Part shown: positions 29,276-58,978 of the stretch, piece after piece
How positions within the stretch are numbered: position 1 is the first letter of the stretch
Layout of the letters: the number at the start of each line of letters is the position of its first letter
Assembly (NCBI GenBank): GCA_030867875.1
Contig: JAOWCC010000936.1
Coordinates: forward strand, 15,942,095-16,006,094
Length of the DNA stretch: 64,000 bases
Direction: 5' to 3'
DNA from: Actinernus sp. WN-2022
Taxonomy: Eukaryota; Cnidaria; Anthozoa; Actiniaria; Actinernidae
Notes under the pieces: model-generated
Databases searched by the model: none
What the model saw: only the letters and a program-made list of their open reading frames with translations
Told to the model about the DNA's origin: nothing
Translations under genes and position numbers: made by a program

Positions 29276-29509
29276 AGTAGTATAGTCGGCGTCAGTTAAA
29301 TACCACTTTTTCTTGTACAACAAAACTCAAAAGGTTGTGAATGTTATGGACGCCTTGTTTTCTTGCACAAGGGGCGTCATAAAGTGAATTCAGAAATCCA
29401 CTTCATAACGCCCCTTGTGCAAGAAAACAAGGCGTCCATAACATTCACAACCTTTTGAGTTTTGTTGTACAAGAAAAAGTTGTATTTAACTGACGCCGAC
29501 TATACTACT
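29276..29509. repeat. Terminal palindrome, left end
   Basis: AGTAGTATAGTCGGCGTCAG pairs with CTGACGCCGACTATACTACT, and pairing continues over about 110 bp per arm to the centre GTGAATTCAGAAATCCAC. Arm asymmetries are ATACCAC (outer) against ATACAAC (inner), and CGTCATAAAGTG against CGTTATGAAGTG next to the loop. In single-stranded form the end would fold into a long hairpin. Confidence 0.93.
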
Positions 29510-29611
29510 ATGGGGTAACTAAGGGTCATTCAAAGTGTCACTAGACATTCTTGTACGTAAAATCCAACTTGATAATCCTATTAGAGATATAATTACATAT
29601 AGTTATATCGA
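29276..29611. repeat. Polinton left terminal inverted repeat (336 bp)
   Basis: It comprises a 234-bp palindrome (29276-29509) and about 100 bp of ordinary repeat that includes the first of three 71-bp iterons. It matches the right end in inverted orientation except for a base at TATAATTACA (right: TATGATTACA) and the orientation of the palindrome loop. Confidence 0.95.
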
Positions 29612-29752
29612 CATCGATTGCTTGTACATAAAATCCAACTTGATAATCCTATTAGAGATATAATTACATATAATTATATCGCTGCAACGTCCTTACACAT
29701 AAAATCCAAATTCGAGTACCTGTTAAAGCTATCCTAACACATAGTTATATCG
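29550..29752 (+). promoter_or_regulatory. Three 71-bp-spaced iterons upstream of PolB
   Basis: Units of 61 bp start at 29550, 29621 and 29692 (TTGTACRTAAAATCCAACTT... ending ATAGTTATATCG or ATAATTATATCG). The first two are almost identical and the third is diverged. The last unit ends 8 bp before the PolB start codon. Only one unit exists at the other end. They could be promoter elements or binding sites of a replication or packaging protein. Confidence 0.7.
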
Positions 29753-29760
29753 AAGGGAGA

Positions 29761-32700
29761 ATGGTGAGACCACGTAGTGAACCACTTCCACGGAGTCTAG
29801 CTCGAGAGGCAGGTGCCATTCTAGAGGAGAGAGATGGAATGCTCGAGGGGATGGAGATAGGTCGCCGTACTATCCGATGGGGCTTCTTCCAAGGTGTGGC
29901 AGGAGACTTGACTCCTAGGATCATGGAAAAGTTAGTTGCAAAGGTAACCACCAGCTTCTACCTACGCTATAGCTACACCTATCGCATTCGCAATGTCAAT
30001 GACGGACGCGTGATTCTATTCTCCAAGACTGTCCCAGGCTCTCCATGGGTGAACATCCTAGAAGATGCAGAAGAGTGGATCAATAGCAAGGAGACAGCTC
30101 GATTGAATCCCGACAACATCACTCGACCAAATACCCAATGGGCCTTCGTTCGTTGGATCTACGTAGATGTCAAAGTCGTGATCGATCGTCAGCTTTTGTT
30201 GGGAACAGGTCCACTGCCCCAATGGCTTCGCCTTAAGAAAGGAATGCTTGCCCTTGATCGATATGGCGACAACCTATGTCTTTGGCGCTGCCTTGCCATG
30301 CATGAAGGAGCAAGAGTAGATAGGTGTTGCGTCAAAGCTCGAAAACTTGCCCAGAACTTCTATCGCCTGACAGCACCCACACAAGACGTTCCCAGAACTT
30401 CCTTAGACCAGCTGGAGGAAGTCGAGTTACACTTTGGAATCGGTATTCGGGTGTATGAACCCACGGAGGACGGCGCTTGGCATCTGACGCGACATGCAGC
30501 TCACTACAAGCATACGATGACGATTGGGATATACGACGGACATGCCTTCTACATCAAGAACATCAACAAGCTAGGGCACATCTACGTATGTAACGATTGT
30601 AAGCAACGGTTCACGAAAGCCTCAGACCTTCACCGTCATGCAGATCGTTGCAGGCGTGGCGAAACAAAGATCGTTTGCCCCGGAAAAGTAATCACAGTAC
30701 CCCAGTCGGCATACGAAAAAGCCTTCTGGCCAGAGAGCACAGCCAGCAAAGTCGCTTTATGCTGGTTGGAACGCGAAACCAAAAGGATTGGACAACACAT
30801 TCATCATGCAGCTTGTGGGCATGGTGGAGAGCATTGGATCGAAGGAGCGCCGGTCGACGGCTACGAACCTATTTCGAAAACCATCTTTCAATTTCATGGA
30901 TGCTATTTCCATGGCTGCCCGAAATGCTTCCCTAGGGAAAGGAGGCTCTATCTCAAGACCTGTGAAAGAACGGCAAAGCTACAAGGAGCTGGTTATACAG
31001 TAGTGGAAGCTTGGGGTTGCTCTACAAAGAAGAAAAACAAACCGGTCCCCACACCAACACAAACTGTCTACCCACACTTCATAGTTTACGATTTCGAAGC
31101 CTATCTCGATACAACGAAAGGAAGACAACCAACAGACCACCTGACCATCGAAAACGTCCATGTCCCAATATCAGTATCAATTGCCGACACATACAATCGA
31201 AAGTCAACCCACATCTGTCGACGCAATCCAAAAGAACTCATCGAAGCCTTCGTCGAAGAACTCCAGCGAAGAGCGAAAGCGATCCAAGAAGTCATTGCAG
31301 AACAGTTCTGCCCCAAGACACCTGAATTCTCTTTTGACACCCTACCAAAGAAACAACAAGCGAAGATCGACGAATGGATCCGCCAAGTTCCAGTAGTGGG
31401 ATTCAACTCTGGCAGGTACGATCTTAATCTGATCAGGGAGCACTTCGTAGGAATCATTGCCGACACCTGTTCAAAGATCCTGGTAGCAAAGAAAGCCAAT
31501 TCCACTATGTTCCTATTGACCCCAGATTTCCGTTTCCTTGATGTGATCAACTACCTTGGACCTGGAACTTCTTATGAACGTTGGATCAAGGCATATGGAT
31601 GCGAATCGCAAAAGAGTTTCTTCCCATATGAGTGGTTCGATTCTCCAGACAAGTTGGATCACATTGGATTACCAGACTATCCAGAGTGGGGTTCGAAGTT
31701 GAAAAGAGAACATCTACTATCTATGTCAGAGTTCGAAGACTGTGAGTGCACCTTTCTCGACAAAGGAATGGAAACCTTTGCAGACTGGCTACGATACTAC
31801 AACGACCTAGATGTAGTTCCATTCCTAGAGGCACTCGAAAAGATGCGAGATTTCTATCACGAGAAAGGAGTAGACATGCTGAAAGACGCAGTGTCCATTC
31901 CAGGAGTCTCACTACAGTTCCTACTTCGAGGTAGTGTAGAAAGGGGAGCTGAGATGTACGCTCCAAGTAAGGAAGCCTACCGCATGCTGAAAGACGCTGT
32001 CGTGGGAGGTCCAAGCATAGTGTTCACCAGACTCCACGAAGCAGGAGTGACTAAGATTCGTAGTCATCAGGGAGGAACTAAGACTTGTCGTAAGATTCTT
32101 GGATACGATGCCAACGCCCTATATCTTTCTACCATGGAATTCGAAATGCCTTGTGGAAAAGAAAAGGTTGTGCACTATGACGATCCAGGTCCAGCCACCG
32201 AAGGATTCGTTGAATGTCTACTTGGTGGAACGTGGTTTGGATATGCAGAAGTAGACATCGAGATACCAAAGAAATTGTGGAAGGAATTTGAGGAGATGCC
32301 ACCCTTCTTCTACAACAAGAAAATCCCCAAAGAAGCAATCCCTCCAGAAATGTTGGCCTACCTCACAAAGACAGGTAGAAAGCTCAGCGAGGAAAAGAAG
32401 CTAGTTGGGAGTCTCTCTGGAAAGAAGTTGCTACTCTATGCTCCTCTTCTACTTTGGTATGTAGATCATGGCGCAGTGATCACTGCTGTCTACCGCACGA
32501 TAGACTACGAACCCAAAGAAATCTTCGGATGGTTCGTGGACCAAGTCACTGAGGCACGTCGTATGGGAGATGAAGATAAAGGTGAGGCTTTGCTGGCAGA
32601 TGTGTTCAAGCTGCTAGGAAACAGCGCCTATGGAAAGTTGCTCGAAGACTTGGGACGCCAAACAAAGGTCACCTATACAAAAGATGAGAAGGTTGTGGAC

Positions 32701-33351
32701 AAAGCATTGCGAAGTGTTTGGTTCGAAGACCTGGAAGAGATTGGTGATGCATATGAACTCGAGAGCCGAAAGGACCAGATCCAAATCAAACGCCCTTTCC
32801 AAGTAGGTATCGCTGTGTACCAGCTCGCAAAGCTGCGTATGCTTGAGTTCTACTATGACTTCATCGACAAGTACATTGATCGCAATGATTTCGAATATAT
32901 ACAGATGGACACAGACAGTGCCTACATTGCCATCTCGGGAAATAGCCTCGATGAGGTTGTAAGACCGGAACTGCGAGAAGATTTCGAAGCCGAAAGGAAT
33001 GAATGGCTAGCTTGGGACGAATGGAGCAGTCGTACGCCAGGACTCTTCAAACTCGAATTCGAAGGACATCGCGCCATTGCCCTATGCTCGAAAGCCTACT
33101 ACGTCGATACAGGTGGCAGCAAGAAGTATTCCGCTAAAGGTATGTCTAGACGGCACAACGACATTTCGTGGGAACGATTCAAAGCAGCCCTCCAGGGTAG
33201 TATCGACATGGCGGAAAACCGAGGCTTCCGACTATCGCCAGAAGGCATAGCAACCTACGAACAACGGAAGCTTGGGCTATCGGCTTACTACGACAAAAGA
33301 CGCGTTCTTCCCGATGGAATCCACACCGAGCCAATAGAGTACGCTGTTTAG
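29761..33351 (+). CDS. PolB: Protein-primed DNA polymerase B (Polinton pPolB)
   Basis: 1196 residues. It should replicate the element from a protein primer. Exonuclease motifs: DFEAY at about 444, GFNSGRYD at about 547, YYNDLD at about 679. Polymerase motifs: GYDANALYLS at about 781, LLGNSAYGK at about 951, DTDS at 1050-1053 (catalytic Asp pair) and KAYY at about 1111. The N-terminal third has DNLCLWRCLAMH (about 169) and HAFYIKN (about 261), a Cys...His pattern like an OTU-type protease fold, then a C2H2 zinc finger (CNDCKQRF...HRHADRC, about 277-297). The OTU assignment is inference. The start ATG follows the third iteron. The gene meets integrase tail to tail with a few bases of overlap. 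Length is typical of Polinton polymerases. Confidence 0.95.
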   Translation: MVRPRSEPLPRSLAREAGAILEERDGMLEGMEIGRRTIRWGFFQGVAGDLTPRIMEKLVAKVTTSFYLRYSYTYRIRNVNDGRVILFSKTVPGSPWVNILEDAEEWINSKETARLNPDNITRPNTQWAFVRWIYVDVKVVIDRQLLLGTGPLPQWLRLKKGMLALDRYGDNLCLWRCLAMHEGARVDRCCVKARKLAQNFYRLTAPTQDVPRTSLDQLEEVELHFGIGIRVYEPTEDGAWHLTRHAAHYKHTMTIGIYDGHAFYIKNINKLGHIYVCNDCKQRFTKASDLHRHADRCRRGETKIVCPGKVITVPQSAYEKAFWPESTASKVALCWLERETKRIGQHIHHAACGHGGEHWIEGAPVDGYEPISKTIFQFHGCYFHGCPKCFPRERRLYLKTCERTAKLQGAGYTVVEAWGCSTKKKNKPVPTPTQTVYPHFIVYDFEAYLDTTKGRQPTDHLTIENVHVPISVSIADTYNRKSTHICRRNPKELIEAFVEELQRRAKAIQEVIAEQFCPKTPEFSFDTLPKKQQAKIDEWIRQVPVVGFNSGRYDLNLIREHFVGIIADTCSKILVAKKANSTMFLLTPDFRFLDVINYLGPGTSYERWIKAYGCESQKSFFPYEWFDSPDKLDHIGLPDYPEWGSKLKREHLLSMSEFEDCECTFLDKGMETFADWLRYYNDLDVVPFLEALEKMRDFYHEKGVDMLKDAVSIPGVSLQFLLRGSVERGAEMYAPSKEAYRMLKDAVVGGPSIVFTRLHEAGVTKIRSHQGGTKTCRKILGYDANALYLSTMEFEMPCGKEKVVHYDDPGPATEGFVECLLGGTWFGYAEVDIEIPKKLWKEFEEMPPFFYNKKIPKEAIPPEMLAYLTKTGRKLSEEKKLVGSLSGKKLLLYAPLLLWYVDHGAVITAVYRTIDYEPKEIFGWFVDQVTEARRMGDEDKGEALLADVFKLLGNSAYGKLLEDLGRQTKVTYTKDEKVVDKALRSVWFEDLEEIGDAYELESRKDQIQIKRPFQVGIAVYQLAKLRMLEFYYDFIDKYIDRNDFEYIQMDTDSAYIAISGNSLDEVVRPELREDFEAERNEWLAWDEWSSRTPGLFKLEFEGHRAIALCSKAYYVDTGGSKKYSAKGMSRRHNDISWERFKAALQGSIDMAENRGFRLSPEGIATYEQRKLGLSAYYDKRRVLPDGIHTEPIEYAV

Positions 33352-34391
33352 CGTCTAGGTACAAACAGAATTCCTTTTGGTGGTAGTTCTGTATCCCTAG
33401 GAACGACTTGTAGCTCTTCACGAACGAATCCACGTTTGGGTGCGTCCTTCTCCTTCGCAAGGTAGTAAAGCACAGGCTGTCCCGAAGATACTACACTTCG
33501 CGAAATGGTGTATATCTGCAAACTCCACACAGGATCAGTAGCTCTACGTTTTTCACCTCCTTCCAATTCTCCTGGTGCATAAAGATATCGAACTAGAACG
33601 TCGAATGGTAGACGCTCTTCTCTCAATCCAACGGTGCGCGAATACGTAGGAGTCTTCAGATCTACTTGTTGCGCCATTACAGAATTAGAAGGCTCTTTAC
33701 CAGTCAAACGAGTCACCTCACTGTTCATGGCTTTGATAACCATTGGTAAACGAATTACCCATTCTCTACTACGCTCATCTGATCCTTCCGAAGTAAGCAC
33801 CATCTCTTGTGCATATTGATATCCAAACAATCTCTCAGCTAGAGTCCTATTTGCTCTTTCAACAAAACTTTGCGCTCTATGATTACCAGCCTCACCTCGT
33901 TGAACTTTCGTACCATGTAGTTCTAGCGTTTCAGACATACGTCCCATGAATTCTCTACCAGGATCTACTTGCAAAGTCTTTGGCCATTCTAGTGGACTAC
34001 GTTTATAGATTCGTTCGAATGCCGCAGCAACTTCACCACTATCTTTAGATGCCAAAGGTTCGGCTTCTTTGTATCGAGAAGCTACGTCGATTACTACCAA
34101 TGCGTACTTGTATAGCTTCCGTCCACGCCCAGGTCGATCGTGTGGTAGAAATATCAAATCAGCTTGGTGGACTTCATTTGGTTTCGATACAGTCCAATGT
34201 GGTCGTGGAATGTGTTTTGGTGGTGGTAGATATATTTGCCACATAGATTGCTTTTCCAACCAACTCCTAGCCACGTCTTCTGATGCTTTCGCTGCTACCG
34301 ATAGCTTGCCAATTGCAGTGTGACCTTTCCAATAGCCCATAGGCCCATAGAAGATATTCGCAAGTTTAGAATCCATCATACATCTATACAT
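33348..34391 (-). CDS. INT: Retroviral-type DDE integrase
   Basis: 347 residues from the ATG at 34391 (an upstream TTG at 34403 is less likely). The rve fold shows D in HQADLIF (about 78), D in QVDPGREF (about 143) and E in SFVERANRTL (about 178). The D-35-E spacing is that of retroviral and Polinton integrases. It would cut and join the TIR ends to new DNA. The N-terminal region lacks a clear HHCC zinc motif, and no obvious chromodomain is seen at the C-terminus, where some Polinton integrases have one. It is convergent with PolB. A hairpin with an A-tract lies just upstream. Confidence 0.93.
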   Translation of the reverse strand: MYRCMMDSKLANIFYGPMGYWKGHTAIGKLSVAAKASEDVARSWLEKQSMWQIYLPPPKHIPRPHWTVSKPNEVHQADLIFLPHDRPGRGRKLYKYALVVIDVASRYKEAEPLASKDSGEVAAAFERIYKRSPLEWPKTLQVDPGREFMGRMSETLELHGTKVQRGEAGNHRAQSFVERANRTLAERLFGYQYAQEMVLTSEGSDERSREWVIRLPMVIKAMNSEVTRLTGKEPSNSVMAQQVDLKTPTYSRTVGLREERLPFDVLVRYLYAPGELEGGEKRRATDPVWSLQIYTISRSVVSSGQPVLYYLAKEKDAPKRGFVREELQVVPRDTELPPKGILFVPRR

Positions 34392-34407
34392 TCTAACCTT
34401 CAACAGA

Positions 34408-34470
34408 TGAAAAAAAAAGGAAGAATAAAGAAAGTCGTTGCGTGACCCTCTTCATTCTTCCTTTTTTTTT
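34408..34470. terminator. A/T-flanked hairpin, copy A
   Basis: AAAAAAAAGGAAGAAT pairs with ATTCTTCCTTTTTTTT around a loop containing GTCGTTGCGTGACC. It lies between the 3' end region of the 34667-35095 gene and the integrase start. Its inverted counterpart with the same stem and loop lies at 43229-43312. Role as a transcript end, packaging signal or origin is undetermined. Confidence 0.6.
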
Positions 34471-34664
34471 TAGTAGTAGCTTAGTAGTAGCTTAAGTAGC
34501 TTACTAGTAGCTTAGGTAACTTACTAGTAGCTTACTAGTAGCTTAGGGCAACTCACTAGTAGCTTAGGTAACTTACTAGTAGCTTACTAGTAGCTTAGGG
34601 CAACTCACCAGTAGCTTAGGGTAACTTACTAGTAGCTTAGGTAACTTACTAGTAGCTTAGTAGT
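34471..34664. repeat. Tandem repeat of TAGCTTACTAGTAGCTTAGG
   Basis: A run of about 190 bp made of AGTAGCTTAG and ACTAGTAGCTTAGGTAACTT units (period about 10 to 24 bp, plus a longer period of about 50 bp). It is the only clear minisatellite inside the Polinton and lies between gene 34667-35095 and the hairpin. Confidence 0.85.
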
Positions 34665-34666
34665 AT

Positions 34667-35095
34667 CTATATCCATTTACTAATAGTGTATCCAACGCCT
34701 AGCATTCCACCCCCAACGTAGAGCAACTCACCAGTCTTCTGATTGTTTGAGGGTTTGTAGTAGTCAGATAAGCGGGGTTCTTTCATCTCTTTGAGATGTT
34801 TAAGCGCCTTACGTAACTTATCGGATCGCACTAAGGCTTCGTTGGTATCTCTTTGATCGTTGTGTGCTTTGCGTTCAAGACCTTCCTGCTCTTGTGCATA
34901 GTCATATAAGCTTTGACGTTTGATTCTATACGCTTTCATTTCACGTTCTAGTTTTTCGGTGGCCCTATCGTGTCTCTCTCGTTCTGCATCTACATCACCA
35001 TCTTTTCCAAGCATTCTAGCTAGTATGCCACCACCAGTAAATGCCGTTGCATTCAATATAGCCCCGAGGAGGGCCATTCCAATTGCTGCCGCCAT
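34667..35095 (-). CDS. Polinton conserved membrane and coiled-coil protein
   Basis: 142 residues. A hydrophobic N-terminus (MALLGAILNATAFTGGGILA) is followed by a charged, probably coiled-coil middle (about 35-105). Then come the motif RLSDYYKPS and a hydrophobic end (LLYVGGGMLGVGYTISKWI). The two membrane segments with a helical centre suggest a virion membrane-type or penton-associated protein. I believe similar DYYKPS proteins occur in other Polintons, but the specific family name is uncertain. It is first in a leftward cluster (toward the ATPase) with short spacers. Confidence 0.7.
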   Translation of the reverse strand: MAAAIGMALLGAILNATAFTGGGILARMLGKDGDVDAERERHDRATEKLEREMKAYRIKRQSLYDYAQEQEGLERKAHNDQRDTNEALVRSDKLRKALKHLKEMKEPRLSDYYKPSNNQKTGELLYVGGGMLGVGYTISKWI

Positions 35096-35123
35096 TATGG
35101 TATGATCTTTTGTTTCTCAAGAT

Positions 35124-35348
35124 TTAGGTTTGGGCTTTTCTTTCTTTCTCAAGTTGTTTCTCAAGATATTCCTTTGCGTATAAGCTACCAAGTATCACGG
35201 CAGTCCACTTTGCGTAATTCGCTAGGGAAGAAGAAGGATCGCTAAGCATAGATTCCTTGGTAGTCTTTTTTACGATCCACCCAATACCAGCAGCGAGTCC
35301 AACGATTTTGACTGCATCGGTTGCCGTCTTCGTCAATTCCTTCTCCAT
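35124..35348 (-). CDS. Small single-pass membrane protein
   Basis: 74 residues with a Gly-rich hydrophobic segment (IVGLAAGIGWIV, about 15-26), a second hydrophobic stretch (WTAVILGSLYA, about 48-58) and a charged C-terminus. The ATG is preceded on its own strand by AGTATATATCTAG, a TATA-like motif shared with other genes of the element. I do not recognise the family; its place among virion-type genes suggests a structural role. Confidence 0.6.
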   Translation of the reverse strand: MEKELTKTATDAVKIVGLAAGIGWIVKKTTKESMLSDPSSSLANYAKWTAVILGSLYAKEYLEKQLEKERKAQT

Positions 35349-35385
35349 CTAGATATATACTACTATGATCTCGAGTCTTTAAGTG

Positions 35386-35736
35386 TTACTCCATGTCTAG
35401 TGCCGTTGGCTTTGCCGGAGCTGCAGGTTGTGTCGTGCTAACGGTGGCAACACGCTTATTACCATCTACATACTTCTTGTACGCAAAGTACGTGCCAAAC
35501 AATGTAGCGCCAGTACCAATGACTGCGAGGATAGTCAGGCTTTCGAACCGACCTTTCTCTACGTCGACTTCTTTACATGATTCGCTTTCGCGCATCAACT
35601 CTCTCTTTTGAGCTTCTTTAGCGAGTTTGTTGCTTAACGCTAGTGCTTTTCCAGCTGCGACGCGCTTTGGGTTTTTTATCTTAGTTGGTGCAGTCGTCGG
35701 AGGATTCGCAGTTATCTGATCCGTCTGTCCTTCCAT
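35386..35736 (-). CDS. Polinton conserved protein with RVAAGKALA motif and one TM segment
   Basis: 116 residues from the ATG at 35736; an upstream TTG extension overlaps the promoter-like sequence and is less likely. It has the basic motif NPKRVAAGKALALSNKLAKE (about 22-41), which I associate with a conserved small Polinton protein, then a single membrane segment (LTILAVIGTGATLFGTYFAY). The end is Pro/Ala-rich. It overlaps the C-terminal end of the upstream gene by about 55 bp. Function unknown, possibly virion-associated. Confidence 0.7.
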   Translation of the reverse strand: MEGQTDQITANPPTTAPTKIKNPKRVAAGKALALSNKLAKEAQKRELMRESESCKEVDVEKGRFESLTILAVIGTGATLFGTYFAYKKYVDGNKRVATVSTTQPAAPAKPTALDME

Positions 35737-36226
35737 CTTGCTTCGATATAGTAGGTATATGTGAAGGTTCAACAGTTGTACCAGGAATGACTACGTGACC
35801 AGATATGTGGAATAGGACGCTAGCTAGAGCTACAAGGCGACCGGCTTTGAGCGATAGTAGGCCAGTCGCAGCACTGATTTCGTTGCGGACTAGAGGGTCT
35901 TCTTGTAGGTCCTTGATCAGGGCTTCTTGAGAATCTATTGGTACTAGGTAGGCAACTAGGCGGGTAGCTAGACGTGTCACACCGTCGACTAAGCCTTTCG
36001 TTACTTGCTTAGCTAGAACGGCCTGATACCTCCTATGCAACTTGTCTACTTCTTTCTCAGGAAGTCTAGAGATGTCTCCTAGAGAAAAGTTCTTACCTAA
36101 GTATTCTTTCGTTACGCCTGTTGCGGCTAAGATCGAAAGTGATTCACGATTGTCTGATGTGACGTCTAGGTTGGTTGGTGGGCCTGTTACATCCTCACCG
36201 AATATCTCGAGTATTTCTTTATCCAT
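35681..36226 (-). CDS. Polinton hypothetical protein (181 aa)
   Basis: 181 residues, beginning MDKEILEIFGED. It is mostly helical, with a mildly hydrophobic patch LSLKAGRLVALASVLF (about 123-138) and an acidic, Asp/Ser-rich end. It lies between the ATPase and the RVAAGK protein, overlapping both by a few to tens of bases, so the cluster is tightly packed. I do not recognise a catalytic motif and do not see protease residues of the adenovirus type. Confidence 0.6.
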   Translation of the reverse strand: MDKEILEIFGEDVTGPPTNLDVTSDNRESLSILAATGVTKEYLGKNFSLGDISRLPEKEVDKLHRRYQAVLAKQVTKGLVDGVTRLATRLVAYLVPIDSQEALIKDLQEDPLVRNEISAATGLLSLKAGRLVALASVLFHISGHVVIPGTTVEPSHIPTISKQDGRTDGSDNCESSDDCTN

Positions 36227-36842
36227 GATAATATGTTGTAGGTGCTGGGAGCTCTAACACTACCTCGAAAGGATGGCGTAGACAGAAGCACATGCGAGCG
36301 AACTTATGGGATCCAAGTATCGTTCGTAACTCTTTACATTCTTGTGAGCCTCCATAATCCTCAAATATCTTTTTACCATCTACGGCCGATGCTGTATGGA
36401 ATGCTACTACGATAGCTACGTTCTCACGGAAGGGCTTACATATGCTCGTTAATTGTTGGGACAGCACCCAAACGGAAATCCCTATATGTCGTGCAGAAAA
36501 GGCTAAGTCCACTAGCTTGTCAGTTCGTTTCTTGACGTCCTTCGATGCGGCGCAATCATCGAGAATCAATAGAGTATTGGTACCTGACCAAAATGTTGCG
36601 CAAATACTCAAAGTAGCATCGATGGCATCTTGTGGTGGCGATATGACGAAGAAATGAGGATCTCGATTTGCGAATCCACGATAAGTTTTGTTGTGGGCAT
36701 ACGTAGGACAAATCAGTACTATGTAATCGAACTTACCACGAAATGCTCCACGAAGTTGTTCTATGAGAAACGCAGTCTTCCCACAATTCGTTGGACCGCC
36801 TATGAGTGCGTTGAACGGCACGTGCTCTACGAGAGAATCCAT
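36219..36842 (-). CDS. ATPase: Genome packaging ATPase (FtsK/HerA-like)
   Basis: 207 residues. The Walker A motif GGPTNCGKT lies at 15-23 and the Walker B motif LLILDD at 91-96, followed by the sensor-like VLSQQ (about 135). The length and motif wording match Polinton/virophage A32-type packaging ATPases, which pump DNA into the capsid. The start overlaps the stop of the major capsid gene, and the stop overlaps the next gene, as in a compact transcription unit. Confidence 0.93.
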   Translation of the reverse strand: MDSLVEHVPFNALIGGPTNCGKTAFLIEQLRGAFRGKFDYIVLICPTYAHNKTYRGFANRDPHFFVISPPQDAIDATLSICATFWSGTNTLLILDDCAASKDVKKRTDKLVDLAFSARHIGISVWVLSQQLTSICKPFRENVAIVVAFHTASAVDGKKIFEDYGGSQECKELRTILGSHKFARMCFCLRHPFEVVLELPAPTTYYHG

Positions 36843-38077
36843 CAGTATAATATACTTTGCAGAGATCTGTTCAATATCGTGACCTGAGCATCCGCAAGGA
36901 CATAGATGTGCATTTTCACATTTCCACTTCCCTTTGCAGTTCTATGTATGCGAATGTCGATGTCCTTTCCACTGCCGGTTTGTGCCAAGCCATCACCATG
37001 AACGGTGGAATCCTTTGCTGTGCGACAATCGATTAGAATAGAGAATCTATTTTCAAAGAACTTCTTTGGAGTCATAGAAGTATTGGGTGTACCAAACCAG
37101 CTTCTTGCAGCCTCCCAGAAATCTAGAGGAAGCATGCCGCTTGGAAAGAGTCTGTTGGGAATCCCATTGACATCTACTTCTACCTTCAATATATCTGGAT
37201 TCGAGAATGCTTCACTATCTCGCGTGCCAATGGTAGGTGGATCTATGAATAGTAGAAGTAGTCCAGCAAAGGATCGTCGTGGAACATTAACGTTTTGAGA
37301 TATCAAAGTATCAGAGGTTTTAGCGATATCTACTGTCTTGAAGTGAACAGCGTAGTTGTATAGGAATGCAGCACCTATTTCATATTTGTGAAGTGCATTA
37401 CTAGCCAGCGTTTCGTTCCTGATTGCTTCGTATTCTAGTTGGATGTTGGTAAGTTGGTACGTACCTATCTTCGTCGTATCCGATCCAATTACAACCTCGT
37501 TGGCAGACGCTAGAGTCAACTCGAATGTAATCGTACTTTCTAAGGCATGTGGATATAGAACTCCATGTTGTGTCAGAATGTCAACATCTAATGGAATCCT
37601 ATACTTTGAACCACATGCAGTTAGGAGTGCGTTGTCTGCAGCAGATGAAGTACTTGCGTCACCAGCTTTCGAGCGTAGCTTATTCAAGTTCTCTGATTGA
37701 ATGCCTTGTTGTATTCTAGACTCTCTCTCCTGCGTAGATAGGTATATATCGGAGTATGTTTGTAGGAGGTCTGGCCTGACAAGGTCTTCTACTGTTTCAG
37801 CTCCCATCCTACAGATTCTACGCATGACCAAACAGCGTCCAACGTTCGAAACGACTCTGTTATTCGCATGTCCACCAGATAGTACGATGTCGCCCAATAG
37901 CGCTAAGCTGCCCGGTACTAGTACTACATCTTCTGCTAGCTTTGGAACTTCTACGTATAGAGTCTCACCTGGATTGGCAGATGATCGAGTGAAAGTTTTC
38001 CTATACAAGTCTCGTGGAGCCTTGAGTGCATGAGGCTCTCTTCGTACTTGTGTGGGATCCAACTTCGATGAGATCAT
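36842..38077 (-). CDS. MCP: Major capsid protein (double jelly-roll type)
   Basis: 411 residues from the ATG at 38077; a longer frame to 38113 would run through the shared promoter. The sequence has alternating beta-strand patterns, with NPGETLYVEVPKLAEDVVLV near the N-terminus and a C-terminal segment FSILIDCRTAK, resembling Polinton/adintovirus major capsid proteins. It should form the hexons of an icosahedral particle. It is divergent from the 38112-39188 gene, separated by 34 bp containing a TATA-type motif. It abuts the packaging ATPase. Confidence 0.85.
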   Translation of the reverse strand: MISSKLDPTQVRREPHALKAPRDLYRKTFTRSSANPGETLYVEVPKLAEDVVLVPGSLALLGDIVLSGGHANNRVVSNVGRCLVMRRICRMGAETVEDLVRPDLLQTYSDIYLSTQERESRIQQGIQSENLNKLRSKAGDASTSSAADNALLTACGSKYRIPLDVDILTQHGVLYPHALESTITFELTLASANEVVIGSDTTKIGTYQLTNIQLEYEAIRNETLASNALHKYEIGAAFLYNYAVHFKTVDIAKTSDTLISQNVNVPRRSFAGLLLLFIDPPTIGTRDSEAFSNPDILKVEVDVNGIPNRLFPSGMLPLDFWEAARSWFGTPNTSMTPKKFFENRFSILIDCRTAKDSTVHGDGLAQTGSGKDIDIRIHRTAKGSGNVKMHIYVLADAQVTILNRSLQSILY

Positions 38078-38111
38078 GTTGAATATAACTATATATATAA
38101 TTATGTTTAAC
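38078..38111. promoter_or_regulatory. Bidirectional AT-rich promoter motif
   Basis: Only 34 bp separate two divergent start codons. They contain AATATAACTATATATATAAT. Related words (TATAACTATA or ATAGTTATA) stand before other genes of the element. Inferred as a core promoter for both genes. Confidence 0.6.
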
Positions 38112-39188
38112 ATGGCCTCTGAGGGTAGGTATGATGAAAGAACTGATGAAGCTGAAAGAGGAAGAGACTACGACAACGATGATACTGTCAATGAAGAAAC
38201 ACGGAAATTGGCGTCAGACTCTACGAATGTGGATCCTAGTGAATCACTCAACCTGAAAACTAGACGCAATTATAATGAAGAAGGTGCTCGACCGAAGTAT
38301 CAGGAAACGTCATTGACAGATGGAGAGCTTAGTGAATTGCTGGATGAGGATAGAATCGAACGGCCTAAATTTAGCGATCACCACGTATTCTTCGAAACAG
38401 GCATATCGGATAGAACGAAACAAATGTTATTCGATGCTGTATGGGAACACTATGCGGATGTAGGGATTCGTGGAGACCTTGAGATAACTAAAGTATGGGA
38501 TGCCGATAAGGAACGGGGTAGAATCTACCTTCACGCACTTGGAAGTAAAGAGAAGCCCATACCTTTGACCACAGTGAAGGGTGAAAGATACCAAAGTATG
38601 GGTAAGGATCTCAAATTTGCCCTAGGCCCTACGGATGCAGAAAGAGCAGAACAAGTCCTCCAAGGTCAAGAAAAGGCCATTGAACATCTCGAAATGGAAG
38701 ATAGTATACTTCAAGATCTAACGTCAACTGAGGACCAGAAGGAAGCGGCTAAGGAAGAGAAAATACACATCCATAACGAAATAGAATTACTCGAACGTCA
38801 AGAAGAAGCCATACTAAAACGTATGTCGCTACGTGAAAGGATCAAATACATTTTCAGAAAGCATGGAATGACCGTTCTTGCAGTAGTAACTTCTATTGGC
38901 GCTATCGTTAGTACGATAGTTTCCCTGTTGTCGAAATCCGTACCGAAACCAATAAAGACTGGTATTGATAAAGCAGCAGATGCAGTAAAGAAGGGATTGC
39001 AAACGACTGGGGGGTTGTTGAAAGAAATGGGAAAGAAACTTGGACAGATCCTACCTGGAATGATTGGATCGATTGCGAGTTTCATATTTACTATGGCTGG
39101 TAAAGCTCTGGGAGTACTAGCACAGAACGTTTGGTTATTCATCGTAGCAATAGTGGTGATCACGATAGAGCAATACAAACGACGTTAA
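38112..39188 (+). CDS. Polinton conserved protein with C-terminal membrane segments
   Basis: 358 residues from the ATG at 38112 (an in-frame ATG at 38052 would overlap the capsid gene). The N-terminus is very acidic. A middle region (DGELSELLDEDRIERP and following) is followed by a coiled coil (about 185-240). Then come the motif RERIKYIFRKHGMTVLAVV, a first membrane segment, a Lys/Gly-rich amphipathic stretch (IDKAADAVKKGLQTTGGLL), and a second membrane segment before the C-terminus. I recall this C-terminal module as common in cnidarian Polinton proteins. It may be a membrane-active or virion protein. Confidence 0.72.
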   Translation: MASEGRYDERTDEAERGRDYDNDDTVNEETRKLASDSTNVDPSESLNLKTRRNYNEEGARPKYQETSLTDGELSELLDEDRIERPKFSDHHVFFETGISDRTKQMLFDAVWEHYADVGIRGDLEITKVWDADKERGRIYLHALGSKEKPIPLTTVKGERYQSMGKDLKFALGPTDAERAEQVLQGQEKAIEHLEMEDSILQDLTSTEDQKEAAKEEKIHIHNEIELLERQEEAILKRMSLRERIKYIFRKHGMTVLAVVTSIGAIVSTIVSLLSKSVPKPIKTGIDKAADAVKKGLQTTGGLLKEMGKKLGQILPGMIGSIASFIFTMAGKALGVLAQNVWLFIVAIVVITIEQYKRR

Positions 39189-40876
39189 CGAAACAACATC
39201 CATGCAATTCCAGCTGCGGCAATGGATGTCACTGCGAGATTAATCTCATGTTGTGAGCCAGCCTTTGCCTTTGCCTTTGCCTTTGCCTTTGGTACAGGAA
39301 CTTGTTTCTTGTGCGTCTCGAGAGGCTGCACCAATTTCTTATCTGGTGGGCCTTTCATAGGAAGAGGTGAATGTCCTTTGCCTTCTGCATTGATGTCGTT
39401 AGTGCCTAGCACCATATCTTTCGTAGCTTTCGGGATTGGATTCTTATAGCCATCTTTCTTACCAAGATAGTACACTAGATCGCTTGGCAATAATCGCACG
39501 CCTACAGCTATTGCTAGATCGAGCCTCTTATGCGTTGATTTTATAGCGGTAAGATAGTTTTTGTAGCTCACCACTAAGTCGTTTTCGAGAATAGCGTCTT
39601 CGACTAAGCTCTTAAACTTTTCTTTGACGTTATGGCTATCTATGATGGATCCGTTCAAGTCGGCTTGAGCACCAAGCATGCAATGTCCAAAAGCCTCGAC
39701 AGATCTATTCAACCTACCCAATCCAGCATCTGTCAAACCCTTTCCGATTGGTGGCGTAAACCAATTGTATTGCTTTCCTTCGTGTTCGTCGTTCCGAATA
39801 AAGGATACTAGATCGCCCTTGTCCACACTGCCTTTCTCGTCTGCAAATAAGTTATTGTGGTTGGGCCATGTGTCTGCTTCCTTGTCGTAGCTTCGGATTA
39901 CGTGGACGTTCTTGTAGCCATCACCATACAAAAGGAATACGTCTCCTAATCCGTGATTCCTACCTCCGTGCCATCGGAAGTCTGGTGGGAAATCTGGTGT
40001 TCGAGATATACCAAATTCAATGCACAATTTCTCAAGAGCTGCTTTGTTATAGAGGTTATCCATTTGCTTGAAATGAGAGTTACCAGGTAAAGGAACTCCA
40101 TTGGCACCACCAAGTTCATGCAGAATTCTTCGTATTGTGAAATAAACGTGAAATCGTAGGAACCCCTGAACGACTGGTGGATACGTTTTGAAAATAGGAT
40201 CAAACAATGACACTCCACATCCAGAAGTCGCACACCACGTTGCGAAATTCAATTGTTGAGGCCAATATTTGAAATCCGGACCATGTAACCAATGGTAGGA
40301 CTCATTTGCTGTCATATGCTTTACGACGGTCTCCTTGAATATGTTTCGAACGCCTGCTTTGAACCTATTCTTTGAGGTGGCATATATCCATAGATTAGTG
40401 AGATCGATATCTTGTGCCGGTCCAGTAGGAGGAACTGCTGTAATAGGATATTTCGCACTTCTATCTAGGGTCAACGTAGATGGGAAACCTTTATGCACAT
40501 CCCACAATGCGTCATCGATGCGTCTTTGAGTGACTGCAGGTAACTTTGAGACATCATTGCCGTAAATGACATAGCTAGAATCTCCATCTCGAAACCAAAT
40601 ACTCGTCGAATATTTGCCTGGACCGTTCACTTCCGTAGAGACATAGAACTTGTGAAGATCTGCATGTGGATATCTTTTCTTGAACTTCACCAACAGATTG
40701 GCATTCAAGGTTGCAACCTCTCTACTTTCCACATCTTTTCTATCTATCCGAGCTTGATTCTCTCTCCTAGCTTGATTCTCAGCCTTTGACCTTATGTTAG
40801 CATTCGGTGTTGGGACCTCTTCCTCTTCGTCTTTCCCTCCGTAATGGTAACTGAAAAGACCTCCAGACCTCCTCAT
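39185..40876 (-). CDS. Polinton conserved large protein with LNFATWCATSGCGVS motif
   Basis: 563 residues from the ATG at 40876 (a GTG-started extension overlaps the divergent gene). Features: acidic N-terminus; conserved centre LNFATWCATSGCGVS and RFHVYFTIRRILHELGGANG; His/Trp-rich RWHGGRNHGLGDVF; an Ala/Lys run AKAKAKAKA encoded by a GCCTTT microsatellite; C-terminal membrane segment (VTSIAAAGIAWMLF). I associate the Cys-containing centre with a widely shared Polinton protein of unknown function. The Cys and His residues make an enzymatic role possible but unproven. It ends 4 bp inside the convergent gene before it and starts divergent from the minor capsid gene. Confidence 0.7.
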   Translation of the reverse strand: MRRSGGLFSYHYGGKDEEEEVPTPNANIRSKAENQARRENQARIDRKDVESREVATLNANLLVKFKKRYPHADLHKFYVSTEVNGPGKYSTSIWFRDGDSSYVIYGNDVSKLPAVTQRRIDDALWDVHKGFPSTLTLDRSAKYPITAVPPTGPAQDIDLTNLWIYATSKNRFKAGVRNIFKETVVKHMTANESYHWLHGPDFKYWPQQLNFATWCATSGCGVSLFDPIFKTYPPVVQGFLRFHVYFTIRRILHELGGANGVPLPGNSHFKQMDNLYNKAALEKLCIEFGISRTPDFPPDFRWHGGRNHGLGDVFLLYGDGYKNVHVIRSYDKEADTWPNHNNLFADEKGSVDKGDLVSFIRNDEHEGKQYNWFTPPIGKGLTDAGLGRLNRSVEAFGHCMLGAQADLNGSIIDSHNVKEKFKSLVEDAILENDLVVSYKNYLTAIKSTHKRLDLAIAVGVRLLPSDLVYYLGKKDGYKNPIPKATKDMVLGTNDINAEGKGHSPLPMKGPPDKKLVQPLETHKKQVPVPKAKAKAKAKAGSQHEINLAVTSIAAAGIAWMLFR

Positions 40877-40919
40877 GTTGAAGCTATACATATATATAGT
40901 TATACCTTCAACATATAAG
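40877..40919. promoter_or_regulatory. Bidirectional promoter between the 563-aa gene and the minor capsid gene
   Basis: The 43-bp spacer contains TATACATATATATAGTTATA and CAACATATAA and has divergent start codons on both sides. It is similar to the capsid-gene spacer at 38078-38111. Confidence 0.6.
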
Positions 40920-41579
40920 ATGGTTCTCTTATATATCACCACAACATCGGCTGACCATACTGCCTACTTCGACGATCCAATTCTTATCAACAACATTTCA
41001 CTAGTTGAGGTCACTTTTGAGAATAGTTGGTGGAATCTAGCGAAGAAGGCTTCGTTCCATTGGGCTATAGAAGAGGGCGTTATGTTTCCACACGCTATCG
41101 TTAAAGGGCACCATGATATAATGAGCATTCAACAAGATTTAAAACCCGCAATTGATGCTGGCATTATCAAATTTGAGCCTAGTAAGGCTTTCATTCTAAG
41201 GGTTATTAAACCAATCCGGTTCAGTAAAAATCTTTGCACACTGTTGGGCGTTAACGGAGATGACTATGGGCAAGATAGTAAGACGCTCAAAAGGAGAAGT
41301 CACGATCTGAGGTTCGACGATATCCACACAGCATACGTACACTGCGATGTCGTAGATTCCAGCTTTTCAATTCTAGATGGAAAGCACTCGACAGTTCTCG
41401 CTAGCATTACGATCCGTGGTGGAAGATTCGCAAAATCGACATACGCCTCTCTACTACCAACAACCACTCGAGCTCTTGGGACAATGCAAAGCAGTCTTCG
41501 TCTGACAATTCGTGATGAGAAAGGCAACGTGGTAGACTTCCGTGGTCGACCGATACGATACGTGTTGAAGCTTGAGTAA
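40920..41579 (+). CDS. mCP: Minor capsid (penton-like) protein
   Basis: 219 residues from the ATG at 40920. It starts MVLLYITTTSADHTAYFDDP, with SLVEVTFENSWWNL and DIHTAYVHCDVVDSSF, wording seen in Polinton minor capsid proteins with a single jelly-roll that form the vertices. Mostly beta-strand pattern. It is followed after 22 bp by the 41602 gene on the same strand, with TATATGTATAACGCG between them. Confidence 0.8.
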   Translation: MVLLYITTTSADHTAYFDDPILINNISLVEVTFENSWWNLAKKASFHWAIEEGVMFPHAIVKGHHDIMSIQQDLKPAIDAGIIKFEPSKAFILRVIKPIRFSKNLCTLLGVNGDDYGQDSKTLKRRSHDLRFDDIHTAYVHCDVVDSSFSILDGKHSTVLASITIRGGRFAKSTYASLLPTTTRALGTMQSSLRLTIRDEKGNVVDFRGRPIRYVLKLE

Positions 41580-41601
41580 GCTATATGTATAACGCGTTAC
41601 A

Positions 41602-42213
41602 ATGGAAGGCGATTCGATTCAACCGTTTCCATCAGCACCAAGTATCTATCCACAGATTGCTAGTGACACTGGAAAGAACTTTAGACTGCAAACGATCCGA
41701 GACACGCTTTCGGACATAGAAGTTCAAGAAAGGCACTACGAAGGTGTGCGCAAGAAATATGCACGTTCTCAAGGAATAGTTCATGGAATCGCAGTGGCAA
41801 CTGGAGGTCTATCTGTGATCTTATCTGGATCTGGATTGGGCGCAGCGTTGACTGGGGTTGGAATAGTGATTGGTCTACCACTTGGAGTCATTGGTGGACT
41901 ATGTGGATTAATTTCAGCATCTACAACCCTTGGAGCTAAGAAGTTAGGAATGAAGGTTTCTAAGCATGAAAGGACAACTATGTTGGCAAAGGCGAAAATC
42001 AATACGATTCGCGATCTAGTATCGAAGGCCTTACGCGATGAAAACATATCCGACTCTGAATACAGTCTCATCCTGAACGAAGCGAATAAGTATGAGATCA
42101 TGAGATCTGAAATTCGTCGCAAGGCTTCCATAGGTGAAAAAAGCACGGATCGGGTTCGAGCCGAACTCAAGCAAGAAGTGCAAAAGGAAATGCGAGAAAA
42201 ACTTGGAATGTAA
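41602..42213 (+). CDS. Polinton conserved protein with Gly-rich membrane segment
   Basis: 203 residues. A charged N-terminal helix (IRDTLSDIEVQERHYEGVRK) is followed by a hydrophobic Gly-rich region (about 65-110: VATGGLSVILSGSGLGAALT, GVGIVIGLPLGVIGGL), then a conserved helical part with KHERTTMLAKAKINTIRDL and ISDSEYSLILNEANKYE. I recognise this layout as frequent in cnidarian Polintons (IVHG...TGVGIV). It is possibly a membrane-remodelling or inner-capsid protein. The gene ends 3 bp before the convergent TFIIB-like gene. Confidence 0.75.
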   Translation: MEGDSIQPFPSAPSIYPQIASDTGKNFRLQTIRDTLSDIEVQERHYEGVRKKYARSQGIVHGIAVATGGLSVILSGSGLGAALTGVGIVIGLPLGVIGGLCGLISASTTLGAKKLGMKVSKHERTTMLAKAKINTIRDLVSKALRDENISDSEYSLILNEANKYEIMRSEIRRKASIGEKSTDRVRAELKQEVQKEMREKLGM

Positions 42214-42216
42214 GAA

Positions 42217-43209
42217 TCAACGTTTCCTATGAAAGGAACGAACATGGTTCTCACTTTCACTTTGCCAAGTCCTACTGCTAGTTAGCCTATGTCTAGTGTA
42301 GATTGGTTCGAAGTGGGAATGGTAAGAAGACAACTCCTTGACAAAACGCTTGACCGCATTTCCAAATATGCCACATCGCTTAACGACATCCTTAAAAGAC
42401 ATAGACGATCCGGAGCGACGTAGCACCTCGTAACTTGCTCCAACGACTTTCGTCTTAAGCATTGATTTGGGGCCTATATTGTTTTCCATTGCCTTAGTAA
42501 CGACCTCGTGGACTATTTGTTGAACGTCCCTAGGTACTCCTACAAGATCTAGTTGTAGGAAAGTCGTCGCAATGTGAGGAACTATGCGCTCAGCATCCAA
42601 GTCTACATCAATCTTATCGTCGTCACACAGAGAACGTATGAAGACCTCTCCATTATGGATGCCTTCGTTTCTTAGTTGCATGAAGCGAGCGACCTCACCT
42701 TTAGATCGGACGAATCCACATTGTATGCATGCATGGTAGAGTAGAGCAGCTAAAATATTTTTCTTAGCATCACTACGCTTGAGACAAACTTTCATTACTT
42801 GGGTGAATGCGTCGGCTACGATTTCTAACGCGTTCATAGGGAACGATAAATCATAACTTTGTTTGTAAATAGTGTCGTATGCTCGTAGTTCTTGTAGTAG
42901 CGTTCGTCGTTTCAGTTCTATGTCATCATCGCTTTGCTTTGGTTTTGCGCGGTCTAGATCACTTTGATACTGAAACCCGTCCGGACCTACTATATGCAGT
43001 CGAGTAGTAATAATGTCGATCTTAGTTTCTGTACATGGTTCAACCTCGGAAACAAGACCACATGTGGGACACACGAATTCCGTTCCTTGTACTTCCAAGG
43101 GACAGAGACAATCAGAACATGTTTCACTGGTGTTAATACGTTCCACTTGTGGTTTGATATTCAGGCTTCTACAAATTCCAGGACCAAACAATCTGACTAG
43201 CTCGTCCAT
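42217..43209 (-). CDS. TFIIB-like transcription factor
   Basis: 330 residues. The zinc ribbon has C31-x2-C34 and C47-x2-C50 (CSDC...CPTCG), as in TFIIB. The following linker is basic or acidic. Two cyclin-like repeats follow: one around ILAALLYHACIQCGFVRSKG with EVARFMQL, one around HIATTFLQLDLVGVP and VVGASYEVLRRSG...KDVVKRCGIFGNAVKRFVKEL. That is the TFIIB layout, in which the ribbon recruits RNA polymerase II and the cyclin folds bind TATA-box protein and DNA. It is not one of the usual Polinton core genes. It may drive the promoters with shared TATA-type motifs. A VLTF3-type late factor of large DNA viruses is the main alternative. Confidence 0.8.
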   Translation of the reverse strand: MDELVRLFGPGICRSLNIKPQVERINTSETCSDCLCPLEVQGTEFVCPTCGLVSEVEPCTETKIDIITTRLHIVGPDGFQYQSDLDRAKPKQSDDDIELKRRTLLQELRAYDTIYKQSYDLSFPMNALEIVADAFTQVMKVCLKRSDAKKNILAALLYHACIQCGFVRSKGEVARFMQLRNEGIHNGEVFIRSLCDDDKIDVDLDAERIVPHIATTFLQLDLVGVPRDVQQIVHEVVTKAMENNIGPKSMLKTKVVGASYEVLRRSGSSMSFKDVVKRCGIFGNAVKRFVKELSSYHSHFEPIYTRHRLTSSRTWQSESENHVRSFHRKR

Positions 43210-43230
43210 GATACAACTATAGATGTCGTA
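43210..43230 (-). promoter_or_regulatory. TATA-type motif before the TFIIB-like gene
   Basis: On the coding strand CTATAGTTGTATC lies directly before the start codon, a variant of the ATAGTTATA word seen before other genes of this element. Confidence 0.45.
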
Positions 43231-43312
43231 CGTTCAATAGAAAAAAAAAAAAGAAGAGGAATGAAGAGGGCCACGCAACGACCTTCTTCATTCTTCCTTT
43301 TTTCTTTTTTCG
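43229..43312. terminator. A/T-flanked hairpin, copy B (inverted relative to copy A)
   Basis: The reverse strand reads GGAAGAATGAAGAAG-GTCGTTGCGTGG-CCCTCTTCATTCCTC between A- and T-rich flanks, which is the stem and loop of copy A at 34408-34470. It lies between the TFIIB-like gene start and the 3' end of the Cys-rich gene, the same relative position as copy A. Confidence 0.6.
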
Positions 43313-43321
43313 TGGCTATTC

Positions 43322-43759
43322 CTAAGCGTCCTTCTCGTTCCTCAAGGCAGCCAACACCTCGTTGAGCGCATGGTTGAGAGACTCTCCAAGACCTTCCACT
43401 GGTTCCAGCACTCTTGATTCAGCGGGCAATGCTACCTCCGGTTCCACCATGTTTGGCTCCTCCTTTCTTGGATCCTCTAGCTTCTTGCTGGACTTCTTAG
43501 CGCGTCTTATATAGACACCGGAAGACTTCACCTTGATGGTGAGACGGTCACATCCTGAGCAAAGCTCGTAATCAGTACGACATCCTTTACCGCACTTCGA
43601 GCATGGTACGTATGGGGCACAGCCTTTTGAGATTTGGTAGTTATGCTGGGAACAGAACTTCGTTGTCTTCGAAATCTTCTTTGGACATTTTGAGTCCTTC
43701 CCTCTCATCAACCAATCACAAGTTATTGCGGCGTCTACATTTGAGTTCTTCTTCGACAT
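43322..43759 (-). CDS. Cys-rich zinc-binding protein
   Basis: 145 residues. The N-terminal half has a set of paired cysteines: CDWLMRGKDSKC, KFCSQH, CSKCGKGC, CSGC, compatible with two zinc sites. The C-terminal half is Pro/Glu-rich and ends in a predicted helix. The pattern resembles small zinc-binding proteins of large DNA viruses, but I do not know its role. It lies next to the TFIIB-like gene on the same strand, downstream of the ankyrin gene. Confidence 0.65.
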   Translation of the reverse strand: MSKKNSNVDAAITCDWLMRGKDSKCPKKISKTTKFCSQHNYQISKGCAPYVPCSKCGKGCRTDYELCSGCDRLTIKVKSSGVYIRRAKKSSKKLEDPRKEEPNMVEPEVALPAESRVLEPVEGLGESLNHALNEVLAALRNEKDA

Positions 43760-43936
43760 GTTCGATCTGTATGGTGTTAATGCGTACTAAGATAACAACG
43801 TAAGCTAGTATTGTGGAATAAAGAATATATACTAATACCATTTAGTGGTAATATACAGTATAATAATCATTCCTTTAACATATACTTCAAGTTTGGATTT
43901 CTTAGGTGCGCGAATATCTAGTGACACTTTGACTTC
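43760..43936. other. AT-rich spacer
   Basis: This contains ACTAATACCATTTAGTGGTAAT and TATACAGTATAATAATC, AT-rich words that could be the promoter of the Cys-rich gene. No coding sequence. Confidence 0.4.
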
Positions 43937-44563
43937 CTACGTGGCAGAATGAGCATCCATGTAGTTGCGTAGTACAACCCTTTCGTCCTCTGTGAGCTGG
44001 GAGTACTGCCACTTAACGAACCATTTAGCGGTATCAAGATGACCATTGTTACAGGCGTATTCTATAGCAAGATCAATGCATTCATACTCTAGGGTTATCT
44101 GAAAACGTCGCATGAGCCACTTAACGTTATTAAGATGACCATTCCTACTGGCACCTAATATAGCAAAACTGACGGCCTTATCCTCTTTGGTGAACTGGAA
44201 GTGCTTAATGAGCCGCTTAGCGATACCAAGATGACCATGCTCAAGGGCAGCGCGTAGAACGTGATTGGCGTGTCTATCCATCATATCGAAACGTAAGTGC
44301 TTGATGAGCCACTTAACAGCATTAAGATCACCATATTCGCTGGCGTAGAGAAGAGAAAAGCTATCGTCGATGGGGCTTGAGGAAATACCGAAAGTTCGAG
44401 CCAATTCGTCTCGATCGTCGTCACTATGAGTAGACCTCAAACCAAAGCATAGTGCTAGTTTACGGAACACTTGGTCTACGTTTTTGTAGCGCGCAAGAGA
44501 TGCGGCATCGTTTAGGCGTTTTCGATGTCCTTGAGAGGCTTGCGAATGACCAAGGATCTGCAT
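43937..44563 (-). CDS. Ankyrin-repeat protein
   Basis: 208 residues. At least four repeats of about 33 residues follow one another (ASEYGDLNAVKWLIKHLRFD, ALEHGHLGIAKRLIKHFQFT, ASRNGHLNNVKWLMRRFQIT, ACNNGHLDTAKWFVKWQYSQ). The G-H-L-x-x-x-K-W-L core is like ankyrin repeats of giant viruses and intracellular bacteria. The N-terminal 70 residues are non-repeat. It is the outermost gene on the right side, adjacent to the TIR, where accessory genes often sit. It could act on host proteins. Confidence 0.8.
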   Translation of the reverse strand: MQILGHSQASQGHRKRLNDAASLARYKNVDQVFRKLALCFGLRSTHSDDDRDELARTFGISSSPIDDSFSLLYASEYGDLNAVKWLIKHLRFDMMDRHANHVLRAALEHGHLGIAKRLIKHFQFTKEDKAVSFAILGASRNGHLNNVKWLMRRFQITLEYECIDLAIEYACNNGHLDTAKWFVKWQYSQLTEDERVVLRNYMDAHSAT

Positions 44564-44626
44564 GCTCTACGATCTTAGTCAGAATTTCTAGAGGGAGGCA
44601 CGATATATAATCCATAGTGGAAGAGA

Positions 44627-44962
44627 TCGATATAACTATATGTAATCATATCTCTAATAGGATTATCAAGTTGGATTTTACGTACAAGAATGTCTAGTGA
44701 CACTTTGAATGACCCTTAGTTACCCCATAGTAGTATAGTCGGCGTCAGTTAAATACAACTTTTTCTTGTACAACAAAACTCAAAAGGTTGTGAATGTTAT
44801 GGACGCCTTGTTTTCTTGCACAAGGGGCGTCATAAAGTGAATTCAGAAATCCACTTCATAACGCCCCTTGTGCAAGAAAACAAGGCGTCCATAACATTCA
44901 CAACCTTTTGAGTTTTGTTGTACAAGAAAAAGTGGTATTTAACTGACGCCGACTATACTACT
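44627..44962. repeat. Polinton right terminal inverted repeat (336 bp)
   Basis: Inverted copy of 29276-29611. It carries one iteron (ATATAGTTATATCGA in reverse) and the second terminal palindrome (44729-44962). TTTTA follows at 44963-44967. Confidence 0.95.
44729..44962. repeat. Terminal palindrome, right end
   Basis: Same length and arms as the left palindrome. On the plus strand the loop (CATAAAGTGAATTCAGAAAT, then CCACTTCATAACG) is written in the same direction as at the left end, although a true inverted repeat should show its complement. The ATACCAC / ATACAAC arm difference does invert as expected. Confidence 0.93.
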
Positions 44963-58971: not shown

Positions 58972-58978
58972 ATCTACT

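Follow-up and report, generated by a model that had tools for sequence, protein, structure and literature searches.

Complete terminal palindromes of a Polinton in Actinernus carry a probable record of strand exchange between their arms

The ends of a Polinton (Maverick) in the 1.39-Gb genome of Actinernus sp. WN-2022 are complete quasi-palindromes of 233/234 bp, each consisting of an outer arm, a short loop and an inner arm in which the terminus is repeated in inverted orientation. One such element is integrated at positions 29276-44962 of the window, the whole stretch of 64,000 nt analysed here, and it was compared with its copies elsewhere in the genome. Inversion of the loop in these palindromes is real, recurrent, single-ended and rare. 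What is new is a Polinton whose ends are complete palindromes and carry a record of strand exchange. The inversions, and the corrections of one arm to the other that accompany them, probably reflect rare template switching between the palindrome arms and not a normal step of replication.

Results

Palindrome positions are numbered from the terminus inwards, such that position i of the outer arm pairs with position 235-i of the inner arm. Read in the same direction, the loop of the window's left end is termed form A and that of its right end form B. Informative mismatches lie in the arms at 29/206, 42/193 and 82/153 and in the loop flanks at 103/132, 106/129 and 112/123. A preliminary description of this DNA had proposed that both ends are 234-bp palindromes that fold on themselves, and both are indeed near-palindromic. 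Taken as single-stranded DNA, the left end has a folding energy of -127.6 kcal/mol, whereas 200 shuffled sequences average -22.6 and none of them folds as well (z -31); this palindrome is therefore not a product of chance. Compared on the + strand, the two ends differ only at positions 29 (C/A) and 206 (T/G), and their loops read in the same direction, as had been noticed before. By contrast, the left end and the reverse complement of the right end differ at 10 positions, all within 103-132, which comprises the loop and its flanking mismatches. Thus, the outer marker (ATACCAC/ATACAAC; in the right palindrome the outer marker is at 44934 and the inner at 44757) is inverted between the ends as in any inverted repeat, in agreement with the preliminary description, and the loop is not. 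A target site duplication lies directly outside both palindromes, which are therefore the exact limits of the element; Polinton target duplications measure 5-6 bp.

An exact-letter search with the 30 bases at the inner edge of the palindrome (<=3 mismatches) returned 225 forward and 213 reverse matches, 438 in all with 0 for the reversed control, or about 219 elements on the assumption of two ends per element. Ends were scored from three sources: 40 of 1181 candidates for a palindrome query with loop A, 40 of 1228 candidates for a query with loop B, and further ends chosen by place, as partner ends or from the inner-flank match list. Removal of partner windows that lacked a palindrome (7 of 20: L088, L091, L092, L093, L096, L098 and L100) and of duplicate rows (L051, equal to L011; L067, equal to L049; L070, equal to L001) left 117 ends, each assigned to the form of the better-scoring of the two window ends, with the hybrid L049 counted as B. 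The inner flank is present in all 40 ends from the loop-A query, though incomplete in L004; solo palindromes, as a possible short mobile derivative, were what was sought here. Since the loop-B query enriches this set for form B, the rate of B was taken from a loop-blind sample, the first 60 consecutive places of the inner-flank list, all of them scored and, like the rest of the 100 places listed, exact 30-base matches.

Form A was present at 98 of the 117 ends and form B at 19, on the left (8), on the right (10) or on a side that could not be assigned (1). In the loop-blind sample B accounted for 2 of 60 ends (3.3%, 95% interval 0.4-11.5%), where random orientation predicts about 30 (p 3e-15 against one half). 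Among the 52 elements with both ends scored, 38 were AA, 14 AB and none BB. An exact 5-bp duplication surrounds 49 of these 52, including 13 of the 14 AB elements; the fetched flank of the remaining AB element has just 4 bases on one side. With 14 of 52 paired elements AB, the copies are not all strict inverted repeats. The preliminary description had read the loops as being in a flip/flop arrangement, to be recognized by scoring loops and markers over other copies. Both isomers do occur there, one end at a time, but they are not randomly mixed.

Two paired AA elements (L038/L037 and L020/L046) lack a matching 5-bp duplication and are possible recombinants between copies. We rejected the idea that the loop flip is private to the window. 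It seemed so at 50 scored ends (48 A, the window B and one hybrid) because 40 of these had come through the loop-A query and 10 by place, and the loop-B query found others. As to whether B elements are older, we draw no conclusion: over 102 bp inside the palindromes, 31 AA elements have 0.86 left-right differences per 100 bp and 13 AB elements 1.64, but the differing sites are mostly shared polymorphisms and sampling was unequal.

The arm markers show how far the inversions reach. Marker pair 82/153 reads G/deleted in 95 of the 98 A ends, whereas of the 19 B ends 15 read deleted/C, the exact inversion, 3 have the deletion in both arms and one, the window's right end, reads G/C. The inverted state is thus found in 15/19 B and 0/98 A ends (Fisher 1e-15), and in those 15, where 82/153 has turned with the loop, the inverted tract spans at least 72 bp. 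The earlier claim that the loop alone is inverted therefore holds for the window pair, in which the loop fails to invert as the rest does, but at most inverted ends of other copies the arm markers turn with it. At 42/193 the B ends read G/T (3), G/C (9), A/T (4) or A/C (3), and at 29/206 A/G (2), A/T (7), C/G (3) or C/T (7). Inversion at all three arm markers together with the loop was seen in two B ends (L054 and L061); the other 17 have at least one breakpoint within the arms and not at the terminus. When each arm is taken to be turned from the loop outwards as far as its breakpoint, a single contiguous tract with two breakpoints fits 17 of the 19. Outer breakpoints fall outside 29 (n=9), between 29 and 82 (n=9) or between 82 and 103 (n=1), and inner ones beyond 206 (n=5, including L057 and L059), between 153 and 206 (n=11) or between 132 and 153 (n=3). 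These counts do not reject an even distribution along the arms (p 0.08 for outer and 0.84 for inner breakpoints; a coarse test with few markers), which predicts 1.4 ends inverted at every arm marker where 2 were seen. The turn of the window's right loop has its breakpoints at 82-103 in the outer arm, which is unturned at all three arm markers, and at 153-206 in the inner arm. Palindrome L065 (C1380:598372), of form B, has arm pairs swapped as exact complements, 21/214 from T/A to A/T and 46/189 from C/G to G/C.

Three kinds of change were seen among the palindromes scored: mutation of one arm, correction of one arm to the other, and inversion of a central tract, which takes in the loop flanks and in most cases reaches well into the arms. 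Correction is enriched with inversion: the arms match at 29/206 in 10 of the 19 B ends, compared with 3 of the 98 A ends (p 2e-7). Among the 117 ends, matched pairs of both kinds occur at 29/206 (C/G 5, A/T 8) and at 42/193 (A/T 34, G/C 11), which shows homogenisation in both directions. At eight arm pairs the arms match in alternative forms, such as 15/220 (C/G 89, A/T 26) and 20/215 (G/C 100, A/T 17); at three of these pairs (21, 46 and 59) a single end accounts for the variation. Correction also occurs without inversion: in L122, which has loop A, the outer arm has taken the state of the inner arm at each of the three markers, and L047 shows 42G/193C. Away from five common marker sites, one-sided changes number 29 in the inner and 8 in the outer arm, with 3 on both sides (counts uncorrected for shared descent), which suggests that the outer arm is the more constrained. 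Position 153, deleted in 97 of the 98 A ends scored, is C in the window's left end. The state 82G/153C was found in 2 of 117 ends, the two ends of the window element, and in no other element seen; a corrected inner arm has therefore probably passed from one end of this element to the other.

The features of the element are collected in the table below. Just inside the left palindrome, the second and third 61-nt copies have 97% and 72% identity to the first, and the right repeat holds one copy. At 14 informative sites inside the left end, the body of the window element equals 12 of 17 other ends compared, which places it in the main young cluster. The polymerase has 793 related proteins at E <= 0.001; identity to the 120 listed of these is 50-61%, and the organism-named ones among the 120 are all from the coral Oculina patagonica. 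Two scans of viral contigs found no relative of the polymerase, and the terminal palindrome had no match in a phage collection. No capsid protein or adenovirus-type protease gave a Pfam match above cut-off among the window candidates. Two open frames are putative capsid genes by their position; the single-sequence structure model of the 423-aa product has a pLDDT of 30 and is unusable for capsid assignment, and the best match of the 585-aa product among solved structures has E 0.1. The TFIIB-like product also matches the zinc-ribbon model PF07282 weakly (E 0.001, below curated cut-off). A Pfam scan of 14 open frames gave no sign of a nickase or Rep-like gene.

Table 1. Coordinates of the Polinton, its termini and its genes in the window
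Feature	Position	Strand	Remarks
Left target site duplication copy, TTTTA (5 bp)	29271..29275	.	
Left terminal inverted repeat, palindrome + about 100 bp	29276..29611	+	337-nt arms, 97% complementary
Left terminal palindrome, 234 bp, loop form A	29276..29509	+	
Left palindrome, outer arm	about 29276-29377		
Arm marker position 29 (C, left outer arm)	29304	+	partner position 206 = 29481
Arm marker position 82 (G, left outer arm)	29357	+	partner position 153 = 29428 (C)
Left palindrome, loop region	29378-29407		
Left palindrome, inner arm	about 29408-29509		
Three 61-nt copies, just inside left palindrome	29550..29752	+	71-bp spacing
Protein-primed family B DNA polymerase, adjoining left end	29761..33351	+	PF03175 E 3.8e-11
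Retrovirus-type integrase	33348..34403	-	PF00665 E 1.8e-10
Packaging ATPase, Pox A32 type	36219..36842	-	PF04665 E 1.8e-10
423-aa open frame, putative capsid gene by position only	36842..38113	-	no Pfam match above cut-off
585-aa open frame, putative capsid gene by position only	39185..40942	-	no Pfam match
TFIIB-like protein, weak match	42217..43209	-	PF00382 E 0.0019, below curated cut-off
Ankyrin-repeat protein	43937..44563	-	PF12796 E 3.1e-16
Right terminal inverted repeat	44627..44962	-	337-nt arms
Right terminal palindrome, 234 bp, loop form B	44729..44962	-	loop region 44831-44860
Right target site duplication copy, TTTTA	44963..44967	.	

Other repeats lie in the window outside the Polinton. 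An inverted repeat at 58597-58972 (165-nt arms, 97% complementary, 46-nt spacer) is possibly a foldback element, and a near-perfect palindrome at 26052-26209 (76-nt arms, 97%; 6-nt spacer) is situated about 3 kb to the left of the element. Nested inverted repeats at 21241-24007, with arms of 149, 125, 92 and 66 nt and a centre near 22.6 kb, resemble one older large palindrome. A long tandem array with a unit of about 110 bp occupies 8543-11380, and a 507-aa open frame at 4506-6029, judged by eye, may encode a non-LTR reverse transcriptase.

Discussion

The element described here resembles other Polintons (Mavericks) in its protein-primed polymerase B, retrovirus-type integrase, A32-type ATPase, long terminal inverted repeats and short target duplication, and differs from them in that its termini are complete palindromes. 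A literature search, mostly below full-text level and thus no proof of absence, found no earlier report of fully palindromic Polinton ends, and the main texts of PMC12721341 and PMC10120064 contain neither "palindrom" nor "hairpin".

Our data are, on balance, best accounted for by a model in which synthesis or repair at a palindrome occasionally switches template from one arm to the other and then back. A switch within the strand would correct an arm and a switch to the complementary strand would produce an inversion, with the two switch points free to lie at any position along the arms. One such event would have produced the window's right end, with switch points at 82-103 in the outer and 153-206 in the inner arm, and events of this kind would likely take place while the ends of the element are single-stranded or being copied. 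There are precedents. Template switching is described as yielding both spacer inversion and arm homogenisation in yeast genes (PMC8604942) and in RNA hairpin genes (PMC8794818), and repeated turning of hairpin loops is described in plastid genomes (PMC6824564). Such quasipalindromes share with the Polinton ends arm homogenisation, spacer inversion, recurrence and variable switch points (PMC8604942, PMC8794818), but the arms here exceed 100 bp, compared with about 10-16 bp for the yeast spacer inversions shown there, and form the termini of a mobile element with hundreds of copies. The small inversions of plastid hairpins likewise combine a common A with a rare B loop form and repeated switching; their stems are short and the loop itself turns (PMC6824564).

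Several points weigh against this model. Palindromes L057 and L059 do not fit a single contiguous tract and need a second event. In L049 (4935-5166) the loop flanks are inverted and the 10-nt core is not, so that either a second event or an inversion of the core is needed; two nested turning events apparently took place. The outer breakpoints lean towards the terminus, with 9 of 19 outside 29, and some terminal preference is possible. The 19 B ends may represent fewer events, as a B end could have been inherited by several copies. Finally, correction combined with loop inversion is described as very rare in RNA hairpin genes (PMC8794818), and an avian study reports nuclear microinversion hotspots without stem-loops (PMC3123225); hairpins are thus not a general cause of inversions in nuclear genomes.

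The flip/flop reading of the preliminary description rested on hairpin resolution of the parvovirus or poxvirus type. Rolling-hairpin replication turns the whole palindrome, and if each round of replication folded, resolved and inverted the Polinton end in this way, inversions would be expected on both sides of the element and at one end at a time, as is observed, and L054 and L061, turned at all three arm markers, would be its direct products. The Polinton ends are further like those of adeno-associated virus (AAV) and other parvoviruses in having terminal palindromes at both ends, two orientations and independence of the ends. However, two predictions of rolling-hairpin replication do not hold: orientation is not random and independent, as reported for the AAV inverted terminal repeats (PMC11575299), since B makes up 2 of 60 loop-blind ends, a few per cent; and inversion at every arm marker, as expected when the whole palindrome turns, is confined to 2 of the 19 B ends, the other 17 having breakpoints within the arms and 7 of the 19 being unturned at 29/206. 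A single hairpin transfer could not give the window's right end, with its outer arm unturned at three markers, and the scanned frames supply no nickase or Rep-like gene. We therefore consider routine hairpin transfer very unlikely. A version in which an end folds back on rare occasions, is resolved whole and has its mismatches repaired to either arm does better with the data, for it would explain the enrichment of corrected arms at 29/206 in B ends and the two ends inverted at every marker, and site-by-site repair suits L057 and L059 better than one tract does. Yet this process cannot leave a site unturned, and such sites were seen: 29/206 reads C/T in 7 of the 19 B ends, one of them the window's right end, and 42/193 reads A/C in 3 of the 19. 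We judge the process unlikely.

Ectopic gene conversion or crossing-over, in which an end is repaired from the opposite end or from another copy with the palindrome in reversed register, would yield the same contiguous tracts and is inseparable from template switching on present data. The 82G/153C state common to both window ends suggests that ends do exchange. The within-end correction of L122 needs no partner, and we regard ectopic exchange as an improbable source of the inversions as a whole. Long palindromes are hard to assemble, and the preliminary description allowed for a misassembled loop. It is extremely unlikely that the B loops are errors of this kind: B ends lie on many contigs, with linked arm markers and with intact duplications in AB elements, and random error would not leave form A at 58 of 60 ends.

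To our knowledge, the copying of Polinton ends has been inferred and never observed. Beyond template switching, it is conceivable, though doubtful, that the palindromes are working parts of replication: terminal hairpins formed by displaced strands would restore double-stranded origins at which protein priming could start, and the few ends that are inverted or corrected would be traces left by fold-back intermediates that existed outside the chromosome before integration. If true, the element would replicate by a hybrid of the protein-primed and the hairpin mode. Bidnaviruses, which have a Polinton-derived protein-primed polymerase together with terminal repeats, differ in that these repeats are reported to form no parvovirus-like hairpins (PMC4061559).

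With its completely palindromic ends and its closely similar copies in the hundreds, this family constitutes a natural mutation-accumulation record of events at the ends of a Polinton. This record argues against obligatory hairpin transfer and provides measurable frequencies and breakpoints for exchange between the arms. A palindrome of 233 bp, it further suggests, can be kept intact through many copies of an element by correction of one arm to the other.

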